This document shows positions 51,389 through 54,338 of a stretch of DNA of 64,000 nucleotides, piece after piece. The notes below the pieces were generated by a model. It had not been told where the DNA came from and made no database searches. It was given only the letters and a program-made list of their open reading frames with translations. The stretch's first letter is position 1. Each line of letters opens with the position of its first letter. Source of the DNA: Rhodococcus xishaensis (lineage in GTDB: Bacteria; Actinomycetota; Actinomycetes; Mycobacteriales; Mycobacteriaceae); NCBI RefSeq assembly GCF_004011825.1, contig NZ_RKLO01000006.1, positions 186,001 to 250,000 of the forward strand. The letters run 5' to 3'. The position numbers were made by a program, and so were the translations under genes.

Positions 51389-51418
51389 TTGCCGACAGTT
51401 CGGGTGAGGGCGTACTTT
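51389..51418 (+). promoter_or_regulatory. Promoter candidate of the structured leader
   Basis: TTGCCG (51389-51394), 18 bases, TACTTT (51413-51418) form a reasonable promoter that would start just before the strong ribosome-binding site at 51431. It makes a separate transcript downstream of cydC plausible. Confidence 0.4.
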
Positions 51419-51450
51419 CTTCCGTACACGAGGAAGGAGGTGGTCTGAAG

Positions 51451-51514
51451 TTGAATGACAAACGGACACGTGAGGTGGCTGCCAGCTAGCCGCGGAGCTC
51501 TCGGAATTCACTGA
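51451..51514 (+). CDS. Short leader-like ORF(s) behind a strong ribosome-binding site
   Basis: AGGAAGGAGG (51431-51440) is the best ribosome-binding site in the window, yet no long gene follows. Ten bases after it a TTG opens 12 codons (51451-51489; LNDKRTREVAAS). An ATG at 51455 in another frame opens 19 codons (51455-51514), ending SRGALGIH. One of them is probably translated as a leader peptide. The TAG of the first frame lies in the 5' arm of an RNA stem (51485-51493 with 51522-51530), so a translating ribosome would keep that stem open. I do not recognise either peptide family. Confidence 0.4.
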
Positions 51515-51633
51515 CCGCCTTGCGGCTGGCGAATCCCAGGCAGTTACCCGACCCCCGAACCCTCCGGCCATGTCCAGGCCGGAATCCCATGTACGACGCG
51601 CCTAGCGTCGCCAATGGACGGGTTCGGGGGTCG
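51479..51633 (+). ncRNA. Structured RNA candidate: leader stem and Y-shaped junction
   Basis: In the 417 bases between cydC and the monooxygenase gene, two nested elements stand out. A first stem pairs 51479-51493 with 51522-51543 (CTGCC with GGCAG; GCTAGCCGC with GCGGCTGGC, one G-U). Then 51549-51562 (CGACCCCCGAACCC) pairs perfectly over 14 bp with 51620-51633, enclosing two hairpins: CCGGCC/GGCCGG (51564-51582) and CGACGC/GCGTCG (51594-51610). This gives a three-way junction. It cannot be matched from memory to a known riboswitch class. The rest of the gap (51634-51738) holds G-rich runs only. Confidence 0.55.
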
Positions 51634-51738
51634 CTGCATCTCGGGGGTCTCAGCTTCTCGGGGGCCGCGCGCGGCAGGGGCCGATATGCTTCTTCTCAGA
51701 CCGGCCCGCGGGTGGCTGGGCTACGTGAGGGGTGGCCG

Positions 51739-52032
51739 ATGTCCGATCTGCATGTCGTCGCAACCGTTCAAGCCAAGCCGGGCTCCGAGGAAATGGTGCG
51801 AGACGGGTTCCCGCCACTGGAGGTGGCGACGCGCAAGGAAGAGGGCTGTGTGTCGTACCAGATTTTCGAATCCACAACCGCCGTCAGAACCTTCGTCGTG
51901 CTCGAGGTATTCGAGAGTCAAGAGGCATTTGACGCTCACCTGCAGACGCCGCACTTTCAAGCGTGGATGAACACCTTCGGCGAGCACCTGACGGGCGCCC
52001 CAGTGGTGCACATTCTGAAGGCGCTTCCTTGA
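51739..52032 (+). CDS. Antibiotic biosynthesis monooxygenase (ABM) domain protein
   Basis: A 97-residue ferredoxin-fold protein: SDLHVVATVQAKPGSEEMV, EEGCVSYQIFES, FVVLEVFESQEAFDAHLQTPHFQAW. Such proteins are putative quinol or heme-independent monooxygenases (YgiN-like) of mostly unknown substrate. The ATG at 51739 follows GAGGGG. Located behind the structured region described above, which may regulate it. Confidence 0.87.
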   Translation: MSDLHVVATVQAKPGSEEMVRDGFPPLEVATRKEEGCVSYQIFESTTAVRTFVVLEVFESQEAFDAHLQTPHFQAWMNTFGEHLTGAPVVHILKALP

Positions 52033-52102: not shown

Positions 52103-52807
52103 TCAGCCGATGTAGCGCTGCAGACGCGCGGAGAAACGAGGTTCGAGCGCTCCGTCGGCGATGACACGCTCCTCGACGTAGGCCAGGTCACCGTCCTCGA
52201 CGATGCCGTACAGGCGCTTGGCACCACCGATCAGCTCACCGGATTGGCTACGGATCACCACGTCAGTCGCCAGCTCCCACGACGACTGCGTCAGGGCCTC
52301 ACCGTAGAACAGTTCGACGACCCCGGACGCGTGCGCGAGCAAGAGCTCGAGCGCTTCCTCGTTTTCGCTACCAGGCGCACCGTCACCGGAGACCCTCCAG
52401 AAGCCGGTCTCGCGCTGATCCGGGCCCGCGTAGCCGCCCGTGTCGTCGAGACGCCACGAACGCGACTCCCACGACAGGTAGTTGCCACCGTCGTGTGAGA
52501 CGACGATCTGCTGACCGAAGCGGTAGTCGCCAGTCTCGGGATCGCGACCCTCCCCCTCGCCACGCCACACGCCGACCATCGGCAGCAATGCGAGCATTCC
52601 GGGATGCAGGTCCGGCCCCAAGCGCAGGTTGGCAGTGTCTGGCAACGGGAGATCGGGCAGGTTCGCGATGTTGCGCCCCGCAGTCTCCTTCGCACGCTCC
52701 GCCGCACCTGCGACCGCGCGGTCACCGCTACCTCGGACGACGTCCGAATCGGCGCCGTCACGGTGCGGAGGCGTCGACTCGGGGTCCGTTTCCCGGCCCT
52801 GACTCAC
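52103..52807 (-). CDS. Nitrobindin-type heme protein (peroxynitrite isomerase)
   Basis: A 234-residue protein. The first 55 residues are polar and probably disordered; the rest is the THAP4/nitrobindin ten-strand barrel with the family motif GVWRGEGEG and later a C-terminal LQRYIG. Homologues such as Rv0813c bind ferric heme and isomerise peroxynitrite to nitrate. The ligand histidine would be expected near the C-terminus; I cannot see an obvious one in the last 60 residues, so heme binding should be checked. GTG start overlaps the stop of a tiny membrane protein gene. Confidence 0.85.
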
Positions 52808-52902
52808 GGCTTGTCAGTGACCAGCCGGTACACGACGTAAAGCGAGAACCAGGTGATCAGGAGCGCGGCAAGAACAAGCAGAACCTCGAAGAAAATGACC
52901 AC
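52804..52902 (-). CDS. 32-residue single-helix membrane protein
   Basis: A very small protein, mostly one membrane helix ([22 protein letters not shown]) with a polar RLVTDKP tail. TAAGAT lies seven bases before a GTG at 52902, which suggests a leaderless start there; an ATG at 52911 overlaps the -10 box. Its TGA overlaps the nitrobindin GTG (GTGA), so its translation leads into nitrobindin. It may anchor or simply couple translation; no family is recognised. Confidence 0.6.
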
Positions 52903-52936
52903 GGCGCCCATCTTAGACCGGGTCCCAAGGGCCAAA

Positions 52937-52980
52937 CCGAAGAGGGGCGCCGTTCCTGTTGGAACGACGCCCCTCTTCGG
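52937..52980 (-). terminator. Strong hairpin terminator of the sulfurtransferase operon
   Basis: Arms of 20 bases (5' arm 52937-52956, 3' arm 52961-52980, one C/A mismatch) with a TGTT loop. It lies 18 bases after the stop of the minus-strand DUF1416 gene and before the small membrane gene, so it separates the two units. Confidence 0.85.
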
Positions 52981-52997
52981 TTGCGGCAAGGATCGAT

Positions 52998-53303
52998 CTA
53001 CTTGGCGACCGTCACATCGACGTTGTGGACGCCTGCGCCGGACGGGCTTAGCCGTACGTCGCCGTTGCCGGAGCTGGACAGCGCACGCACCTTCCAGTCC
53101 CCAGGGGCAGCGAAGAATCGGAAGTCGCCGGTCGCGGAGGCGACGACCTCGGCGGTGAACTCGTCGGTGCCGTCGAGTAGACGGACGAACGCGCCACCGA
53201 CCGGCTGGCCATCAGCGGACAGCACACGGCCGGTGATGACCGTCTCCGTCTCGACGTTCACGCCAGCGGGCAGGGTCTGGGTCTGAACAGGTGCTCCGCA
53301 CAT
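52998..53303 (-). CDS. sseC: DUF1416 protein, SseC-like
   Basis: A 101-residue protein starting MCGAP, with a carboxypeptidase-regulatory-like beta-sandwich (GRVLSADGQPVGGAFVRLLDG, GDFRFFAAPGDWKVRAL). It matches SseC of mycobacteria, always found after a thiosulfate sulfurtransferase and linked to sulfur metabolism without proven activity. Five bases separate it from the sulfurtransferase gene. Confidence 0.9.
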   Translation of the reverse strand: MCGAPVQTQTLPAGVNVETETVITGRVLSADGQPVGGAFVRLLDGTDEFTAEVVASATGDFRFFAAPGDWKVRALSSSGNGDVRLSPSGAGVHNVDVTVAK

Positions 53304-53308
53304 ATCTC

Positions 53309-54142
53309 TTATGCTCCCAACTCGATTGGTGCGCCGACCAGCGAGCCGTACTCGACCCAGCTGCCGTCGTAGTTCTTCACGTTCTTCTTGCCGAGGATCT
53401 CCTGCAGCACGAACCAGGTGTGGCTCGAGCGCTCACCGATGCGGCAATAAGCGATGGTCTCCTTGGAATCGTCGAATCCCTTGTCCGCATACAACTTTGC
53501 GAGGTCCTCGTCGGACTTGAACGTGCCGTCCTCGTTGGCGGTGGTGCTCCACGGGATGTTGATGGCACCCGGGACGTGGCCGCGCTGTTGAGCCTGCTCC
53601 TGCGGCAGATGTGCCGGAGCGAGAATCTTGCCCGAGTACTCGTCCGGGGAGCGGACGTCGACCAGGTTCGCCGCGCCGATCGCCGCGATCACGTCGTCAC
53701 GGAACGCGCGGATCGAGGTGTCGGGCGCGGAGGCCTTGTACTCGGTGGCCGGACGGGTGACCGTCTCCTTCGACAGCGCACGGCCGTCGAGTTCCCACTT
53801 CTTGCGGCCGCCGTCGATCAGCTTGACGTCGTTGTGGCCGTACAGCTTGAAGTACCAGTAGGCGTACGCCGCGAACCAGTTGTTGTTGCCGCCGTAGAGC
53901 ACCACGGTGTCGTCGTTGGCGACACCCTTCGCGGACAGGAGGGCGGAGAACTGCTCCTGGTTCAGGAAGTCGCGGCGCACGCCGTCCTGCAGGTCCTTCC
54001 GCCAGTCGAGTTTGATCGCGCCCTCGATGTGGCCGCCGTCGTACGCGGCGGTGTCCTCGTCGACCTCGATGAAGACGGTCTTGGGGGCGCTGAGGTTCTG
54101 CTCGGCCCAGTCTGCGGAGACCAGGACGTCGGAGCGAGCCAT
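53309..54142 (-). CDS. Thiosulfate sulfurtransferase (rhodanese)
   Basis: A 277-residue two-domain rhodanese of the mycobacterial CysA2/CysA3 type. The inactive N-terminal domain has VFIEVDEDTAAYDGGHIEGA; the C-terminal one has LVDVRSPDEYSG and the active loop YCRIGERSSHTWF with Cys near residue 233. It moves sulfane sulfur from thiosulfate to acceptors. GAAAGGA precedes the ATG. A poly-cysteine leader peptide gene upstream suggests cysteine-dependent attenuation. Confidence 0.93.
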   Translation of the reverse strand: MARSDVLVSADWAEQNLSAPKTVFIEVDEDTAAYDGGHIEGAIKLDWRKDLQDGVRRDFLNQEQFSALLSAKGVANDDTVVLYGGNNNWFAAYAYWYFKLYGHNDVKLIDGGRKKWELDGRALSKETVTRPATEYKASAPDTSIRAFRDDVIAAIGAANLVDVRSPDEYSGKILAPAHLPQEQAQQRGHVPGAINIPWSTTANEDGTFKSDEDLAKLYADKGFDDSKETIAYCRIGERSSHTWFVLQEILGKKNVKNYDGSWVEYGSLVGAPIELGA

Positions 54143-54338
54143 GGATTGTCCTTTCGGTTCGTTACGGCGTGTGGTGAATTCGTGAACAGGCTGCGCGAGC
54201 ACGGCTCGTGCGGTCTTGAGGGGGGTGGTCCCGGGAATCAGGCCGTTTGCGGCGGATTCGGCAGGTCACCGATCACGGACGGGAACGTCGGTCAGCGATG
54301 GAGACGCTGGTTACGGGACGAGGAGTCGACCGTCGTGA
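54143..54338 (-). promoter_or_regulatory. Leader region between the Cys-rich peptide and the rhodanese gene
   Basis: No gene is visible. By analogy with mycobacterial sORF-sulfurtransferase operons, this region should fold differently depending on ribosome stalling at cysteine codons and so expose or hide the ribosome-binding site. I did not resolve a unique pair of alternative structures by eye. Confidence 0.4.

Follow-up and report, generated by a model that had tools for sequence, protein, structure and literature searches.

A structured RNA of 214 nt lies on the forward strand of the 64,000-nucleotide stretch of the Rhodococcus xishaensis genome that was analysed (the window), at positions 51426-51639. 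It is a member of the Rfam family RF02471 (Ms_IGR-5, 'Actinobacteria sRNA'), which is already catalogued and has no function assigned to it. Comparison with relatives suggests that this is an independent RNA that carries a very strong ribosome-binding site and a mini-ORF whose codons take part in the fold. There appears to be an even chance that the fold is opened by the RNA's own translation, making it either a ribosome-gated sensor or a trap for 30S subunits.

The match to the Rfam covariance model (143.4 bits, E 1.3e-32, gathering score 45) runs end to end, from model position 1 to 184 of 184. The genome has no other copy of Ms_IGR-5, and the RNA probably starts near 51426. A sequence-only reading of the window had matched the region to no known riboswitch or sRNA family, which the score for RF02471 corrects. 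The covariance search that it recommended gave this full-length match and relatives across the actinobacteria. Its named elements, a promoter-like pair, a Shine-Dalgarno (SD) sequence, short frames, a stem, a 14-bp pairing, and two hairpins, were checked letter by letter and are all located as described. It considered such a set unlikely by chance, and this agrees with the folding energy of the RNA, which is -107.8 kcal/mol where shuffled sequences average -81.6 (z -5.43; 0 of 200 shuffles equally stable), and with an SD duplex that was the best of a window scan. Elsewhere in the window, a Guanidine-III riboswitch (RF01763) was identified at 1864-1924 on the reverse strand, with 55.2 bits against a gathering score of 36.

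Of 14 genomes of the genus, 13 carry RF02471, as do 107 of 118 from a second genus of the family. In larger samples, scored with stricter filters that lose weak matches, it was present in 192 of 296 class genomes, representing 74 of 115 genera, and in 70 of 396 genomes from a draw on the phylum; the score passes the family cut-off in 191 of the former and 35 of the latter. There were no matches in 14 control genomes. Mycobacterium, Mycolicibacterium, Rhodococcus, Nocardia, Amycolatopsis, Micromonospora, Nocardioides, Cellulomonas, Blastococcus, and others are represented among the matches listed from a pattern scan. With 104 class genomes and 326 phylum genomes lacking it, the family is widespread and not universal. 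It is also dispensable, since it is missing from those 104 class genomes and from 11 of the 118 genomes of the neighbouring genus. A phage or plasmid origin was rejected, as 50,697 phage records held no match to the RNA and 72,556 plasmid records held one, in a 2.66-Mb Nocardia farcinica record.

The loci compared below were collected in two ways. L103-L221 come from a search with a DNA pattern in which GGAGGTGGTC and most of the core are fixed, so invariance at those positions is built in. The scripts required GAGGTG. The main counts were repeated on loci found by the Rfam model, where the scripts still required the SD and GAGGTG motifs and a pattern used did not fit L038 and L096.

The RNA has been observed in other actinobacteria. 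In the accessible parts of the published texts, RNA-seq of M. smegmatis gives an sRNA overlapping IGR-5, with earlier northern blots referred to (PMC10454040), S. lividans carries Ms_IGR-5 with RNA-seq validation (PMC8079986), and in S. avermitilis it is listed among the sRNA transcription units (PMC8780764). Ribosome-protected reads fall on the homologues of M. abscessus and M. smegmatis, according to the part of PMC4974804 that is available; its authors warn that classical non-coding RNAs give footprints too. These partial texts, the original paper aside, hold no description of a frame, of the helix called P1 below, or of a pseudoknot in Ms_IGR-5, and one may exist.

Helices, 3' domain and pseudoknot

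The minimum-energy fold of 51426-51639 includes two helices, P1 and P2, and a 3' domain. P1 pairs GGTGGCTGCC (51474-51483), which forms codons 8-11 of the mini-ORF, with GGCAGTTACC (51539-51548), which lies directly before the outer helix of the 3' domain. In the test of P1, the outer 3' helix was located first and the P1 pairing was not used to place the 3' strand. Across 46 loci, 92.8% of cells were paired and five pairs had changes on both sides. There were 26 cells with two-sided changes against 7.2 in shuffles, and 0 of 300 shuffles reached this number. Across 96 of 97 loci (L162 left out), 92.7% of cells were paired, with 37 two-sided cells against 4.1 in shuffles. When the strands were slid by 1 or 2, pairing fell to 26.7-43.5% and there was no covariation.

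P2 is formed by arms at 51485-51493 and 51522-51530 and holds the stop codon of the mini-ORF, so the stop does lie inside the 5' arm of a stem, as the sequence-only reading had it. In 94 loci, from a set of 97 in which L080, L081, and L120 were dropped from a P1 count, the seven inner pairs of P2 were paired in 75.1% of cells, with 26 two-sided cells against 11.1 in shuffles.

The 3' domain (51549-51633) consists of an outer helix of 14 bp around hairpins at 51564-51582 and 51594-51610. CGACCCCCGAACCC (51549-51562) pairs perfectly with GGGTTCGGGGGTCG (51620-51633), and each hairpin has 6 bp; the letters confirm that all of these pairings are perfect, as had been claimed. The outer helix has at least 9 bp in 46 of 46 and in 96 of 97 diverse Actinomycetes loci. 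Compensatory changes in this helix, which had been proposed as a check, were found between lineages by inspection, the quantified covariation being that of P1 and the pseudoknot. The 3' domain would be a probable intrinsic terminator without a U run.

Codons 5-6 of the mini-ORF appear to form a pseudoknot with the 3' domain. In the window, GGACA (51464-51468) can pair with TGTCC (51571-51575) in the apical loop of hairpin 51564-51582. Relatives have GGACN in codons 5-6 and, opposite it, N'GTCC in the first of the apical loops of the 3' domain. A full match of 5 bp was found in 80 of 122 diverse loci (apical loops found by folding; L162 left out), where 500 shuffles had a mean of 50 and a maximum of 66. 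The fifth pair, a position that was not used in finding the loop, was standard in 68.2% of 44 loci and in 41.3% in shuffles; 0 of 1000 shuffles reached this. All of the shuffle tests overstate significance, because they ignore relatedness; that the changes are spread over several families speaks against a single inherited event. The fifth pair was G-C in 12 of these loci, T-A in 11, and A-T in 6, and the position was unpaired in 14. L050 and L051 have GGAT with ATCC, and L073 has GGAT with GTCC. Most of the diverse distant loci have matches of 5-6 bp, such as GGGACC/GGTCCC, or TCGACC/GGTCGA in L259. No match was found in 8 of 29 diverse distant loci within the stretch searched, and the few matches at other distances may be chance. 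In the window, the first base of the start codon is followed after 14 nt by the pseudoknot, close to where the front of an initiating ribosome would be expected.

P1 and the pseudoknot were not part of the earlier reading and are new from the comparison. The SD, the core, and the 3' hairpin domain are identical in kind in RF02471 and in the window RNA. However, the Rfam drawing pairs the SD (model 14-19) with the end of the frame (model 55-60), and the relatives support P1 and the pseudoknot instead. The Rfam record line names the family an sRNA and mentions no frame. In the 94 loci, 97.3% of cells can pair in the Rfam helix, largely as G-U, with few changes and no clear two-sided covariation. 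The SD can alternatively pair with the 3' strand of P1 (98.0% of cells), and its last bases can pair with GGAC in the frame (98.7% of cells), a pairing that is present in the minimum-energy fold. By these predictions the P1 strands, the SD, and the frame compete for pairing; since the SD and much of the frame core are invariant, covariation does not rank the competing pairings.

Ribosome-binding site and mini-ORF

The extended SD, AGGAAGGAGGTGGTCT (51431-51446), can pair over 16 of 16 bases with 5'-GGAUCACCUCCUUUCU-3' of the 16S rRNA tail, three of them as G-U. This tail sequence was found in 11 of 14 genus genomes and not in the genome's own assembly. The duplex, at -26.7 kcal/mol, is the best in the window (both strands, in steps of 4 bases), and the site had been rightly called the strongest ribosome-binding site there. 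The next-best unrelated duplex (-23.8 kcal/mol; 54209-54233, forward strand) lies opposite the start region of a rhodanese gene and is probably incidental. The Rfam model found 114 unique loci; pairing can extend over the full 16 bases in 109 of them and over 15 in the other five. Where the SD faces an rRNA U, A and G are almost the only bases to occur. The first position is less strict, with C or T in 15 of 126 loci.

The SD pattern occurs twice in the organism's own genome, once at this RNA, and its reversed control does not occur. In 118 class genomes, the matches listed show it recurring at this RNA and antisense of 16S genes, with scattered others. The core of the RNA is absent at the other 16-nt SD-like sites that were inspected, L272-L275, and L276 is the antisense of 16S rRNA.

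Two frames had been proposed downstream of the SD, one of 12 codons and one of 19. The 12-codon mini-ORF with a TTG start and a TAG stop (MNDKRTREVAAS, 51451-51489) is kept in relatives. The 19-codon frame from ATG to TGA (51455-51514) is present in the window and was rejected, as relatives do not keep it. In 207 of 222 unique loci, an open frame that ends at the P2 stop begins with ATG, GTG, or TTG at a distance of 8-14 nt from GGAGG, so the idea of a short translated frame appears to have been a good guess. With openness ignored, starts in the three frames number 207, 16, and 58 of 222. Open starts number 113, 0, and 17 in 126 diverse loci, and 63, 0, and 17 in 75 loci found by the Rfam model only.

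TTG is the most common start, with 133 of the 207 loci (ATG 51, GTG 23) and 46 of 97 diverse Actinomycetes loci. The mini-ORF has 10-14 codons, 12 of them in 182 loci, and in the 222 loci it ends in TAG (208), TGA (9), or TAA (5). The 15 loci without ATG, GTG, or TTG (L027, L187, L239, L241, L242, L246, L248, L250, L253, L254, L256, L262, L263, L265, and L270) have ATT, ATC, CTG, or ACG nearby, as read by eye. A canonical start was found in no more than 18 of the 29 diverse distant loci.

The peptide shows no sign of selection; what relatives keep is the frame. In 97 diverse Actinomycetes loci, codon 5 is AGG, CGG, TGG, or GGG, codon 7 is mostly CGT or TGT, and codon 12 is mostly CGC or AGC. 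Codon-position entropies indicate that codons 5, 7, and 12 vary most at the first base and codons 2-4 at all positions. Four distant relatives, L255, L262, L267, and L269, read the GAGGTG core in another frame, with start and stop still in frame with each other, in L262 only by way of ATT. These four loci also have a shortened 3' domain and no pseudoknot match, and the 16S-tail match and a start-to-stop frame are present in them. With these entropies and this change of frame, the sign of a small-protein mRNA, a peptide under selection, was not found.

Three other accounts of the RNA bear on this site and this frame. 6S RNA is an RNA polymerase-binding sRNA, and Ms1 is described as one in the accessible text of PMC9130861. 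The main job of the window RNA could be the capture and retention of free 30S subunits, much as RNA polymerase is held by 6S RNA and Ms1, with translation of the frame serving only for ejection. The computed complementarity to the whole 16S tail at the strongest site of the window, the weak start codons, and the near uniqueness of the site (essentially the only recurrent non-rRNA site among the matches listed in the 118-genome search) are consistent with this, and 30S binding is putative. The position of the pseudoknot, close to the presumed front of an initiating ribosome, also fits. However, a pure decoy needs neither an in-frame stop nor an open frame, and both are kept; holding 30S subunits is unlikely to be the main job. 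It is rather improbable that this is an ordinary trans-acting antisense RNA with a short frame that is a by-product of a G-rich 5' end. The family is catalogued as an sRNA and, by the title of a reference, was found in a screen with heterologous Hfq, but the start, frame, and stop are kept across classes though codons 2-4 vary freely. An mRNA for a functional peptide of 10-14 residues would fit the very strong ribosome site and the conserved frame; it is made very improbable by a pattern of variation unlike that of a selected peptide and by the four relatives that encode unrelated sequence from the same core.

Promoter and neighbouring genes

The RNA has its own conserved predicted promoter (51389-51418), with a -35-like TTGCCG (51389-51394), a spacer of 18 nt, and a -10-like TACTTT (51413-51418). 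In 112 of 126 diverse loci, TANNNT stands at -16 to -9 relative to the RNA start; a control stretch has it in 2 of 126. TTG is present 15-20 nt further upstream in 82 of these 112.

The genes next to the RNA vary. In the window, cydC lies upstream and a monooxygenase gene (Pfam ABM) begins at 51739, 3' of the RNA and co-directional with it. In 241 loci, whose unequal flanks make all counts lower bounds, a monooxygenase gene is beside the RNA in two (the window and one close relative), cydC-like genes are present in 36 (33 upstream on the strand of the RNA), and a THAP4/nitrobindin-like gene is present in 72, downstream and convergent in 72 of 72. The last two patterns indicate that the position of the RNA is old in part of the phylum. 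In the window, genes for THAP4/nitrobindin-like, DUF1416, and rhodanese proteins (Pfam) occupy 52103-54202 on the reverse strand, convergent to the RNA. In 60 loci examined with a simple gene caller, the downstream gene was on the same strand in 30, on the opposite strand in 28, and missing in two. Over the 241 and the 60 loci no gene is regularly 3' of the RNA on its own strand, and the conserved co-directional downstream gene of a cis-regulatory leader was not found. By this comparison it is a stand-alone RNA, independent of neighbouring genes, and the suggestion of an independent small RNA fits both its promoter and its variable neighbours.

It had also been suggested that the RNA controls the monooxygenase gene or is made from the tail of the cyd operon, which the gene order of the window and the upstream cydC-like genes would allow; a cis-acting leader or attenuator is rejected by the rarity of that neighbour, the evenly split downstream strands, and the convergent THAP4/nitrobindin-like gene, a cyd tail by the RNA's own conserved promoter, and the two together are scarcely credible.

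Possible function of the RNA

The opening of the fold by translation, the reading preferred here, could proceed as follows. An RNA of about 214 nt would be made from its own promoter and ended by the 3' hairpin domain. A 30S subunit would be captured by the SD that matches the whole free tail of 16S rRNA, and initiation would take place at a mostly weak start codon (TTG, GTG, sometimes ATT, ATC, or CTG). In the ribosome-free state, codons 5-6 would be in the pseudoknot, codons 8-11 in P1, and the stop codon in P2. Translating the 10-14 codons would force a ribosome to open all three. The RNA would therefore have two states, a closed one that is ribosome-free and an open one that is ribosome-bound, and its state could report the capacity for initiation or hold a 30S subunit. 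The output would be in trans, possibly through the stability of the RNA, exposed 3' strands, or a sequestered 30S subunit. Comparison shows the frame, the SD match, P1, the pseudoknot, the promoter, and the independence from neighbours; the switching and the output are what we infer. A translation-sensitive fold had been guessed from the window, and this appears to have been a good guess.

Relatives keep the frame open even as its letters are used by the fold, and often weak starts are combined with a maximal SD. The simplest reading would be that being occupied or translated by a ribosome is what the RNA is for, and that the fold is the responder.

Translation-sensing leaders (uORF attenuators) have a short frame, a strong SD, and a frame end and stop codon in a helix, as the window RNA does. 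A paper on the topAI uORF reportedly deals with leaders of this kind. Unlike them, the window RNA has no conserved downstream gene, and with a promoter and a 3' end of its own it could act only in trans. Its codons are also not conserved as the sensor codon of an attenuator would be. It resembles 6S RNA and Ms1 in being small, structured, and stand-alone, and in that it may hold a core expression machine. The presumed partner differs, being the 30S ribosome, reached by pairing with rRNA.

A wider view is held more tentatively. Across the phylum, these RNAs may form a ribosome-gated class in which the mini-ORF is kept for its translation and not for its content. A 30S subunit would dock where the RNA matches the full length of the 16S tail, at a start codon that is poor by design, and meet a pseudoknot with the RNA's own 3' domain. 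The class would measure or tie up initiating ribosomes and could be the ribosome's counterpart of 6S RNA. If the ribosome-gated reading holds, the drawn structure of the Ms_IGR-5 family would need revision, and the actinobacteria, antibiotic producers included, would possess a widespread RNA that couples the availability of ribosomes to the fold of an RNA.
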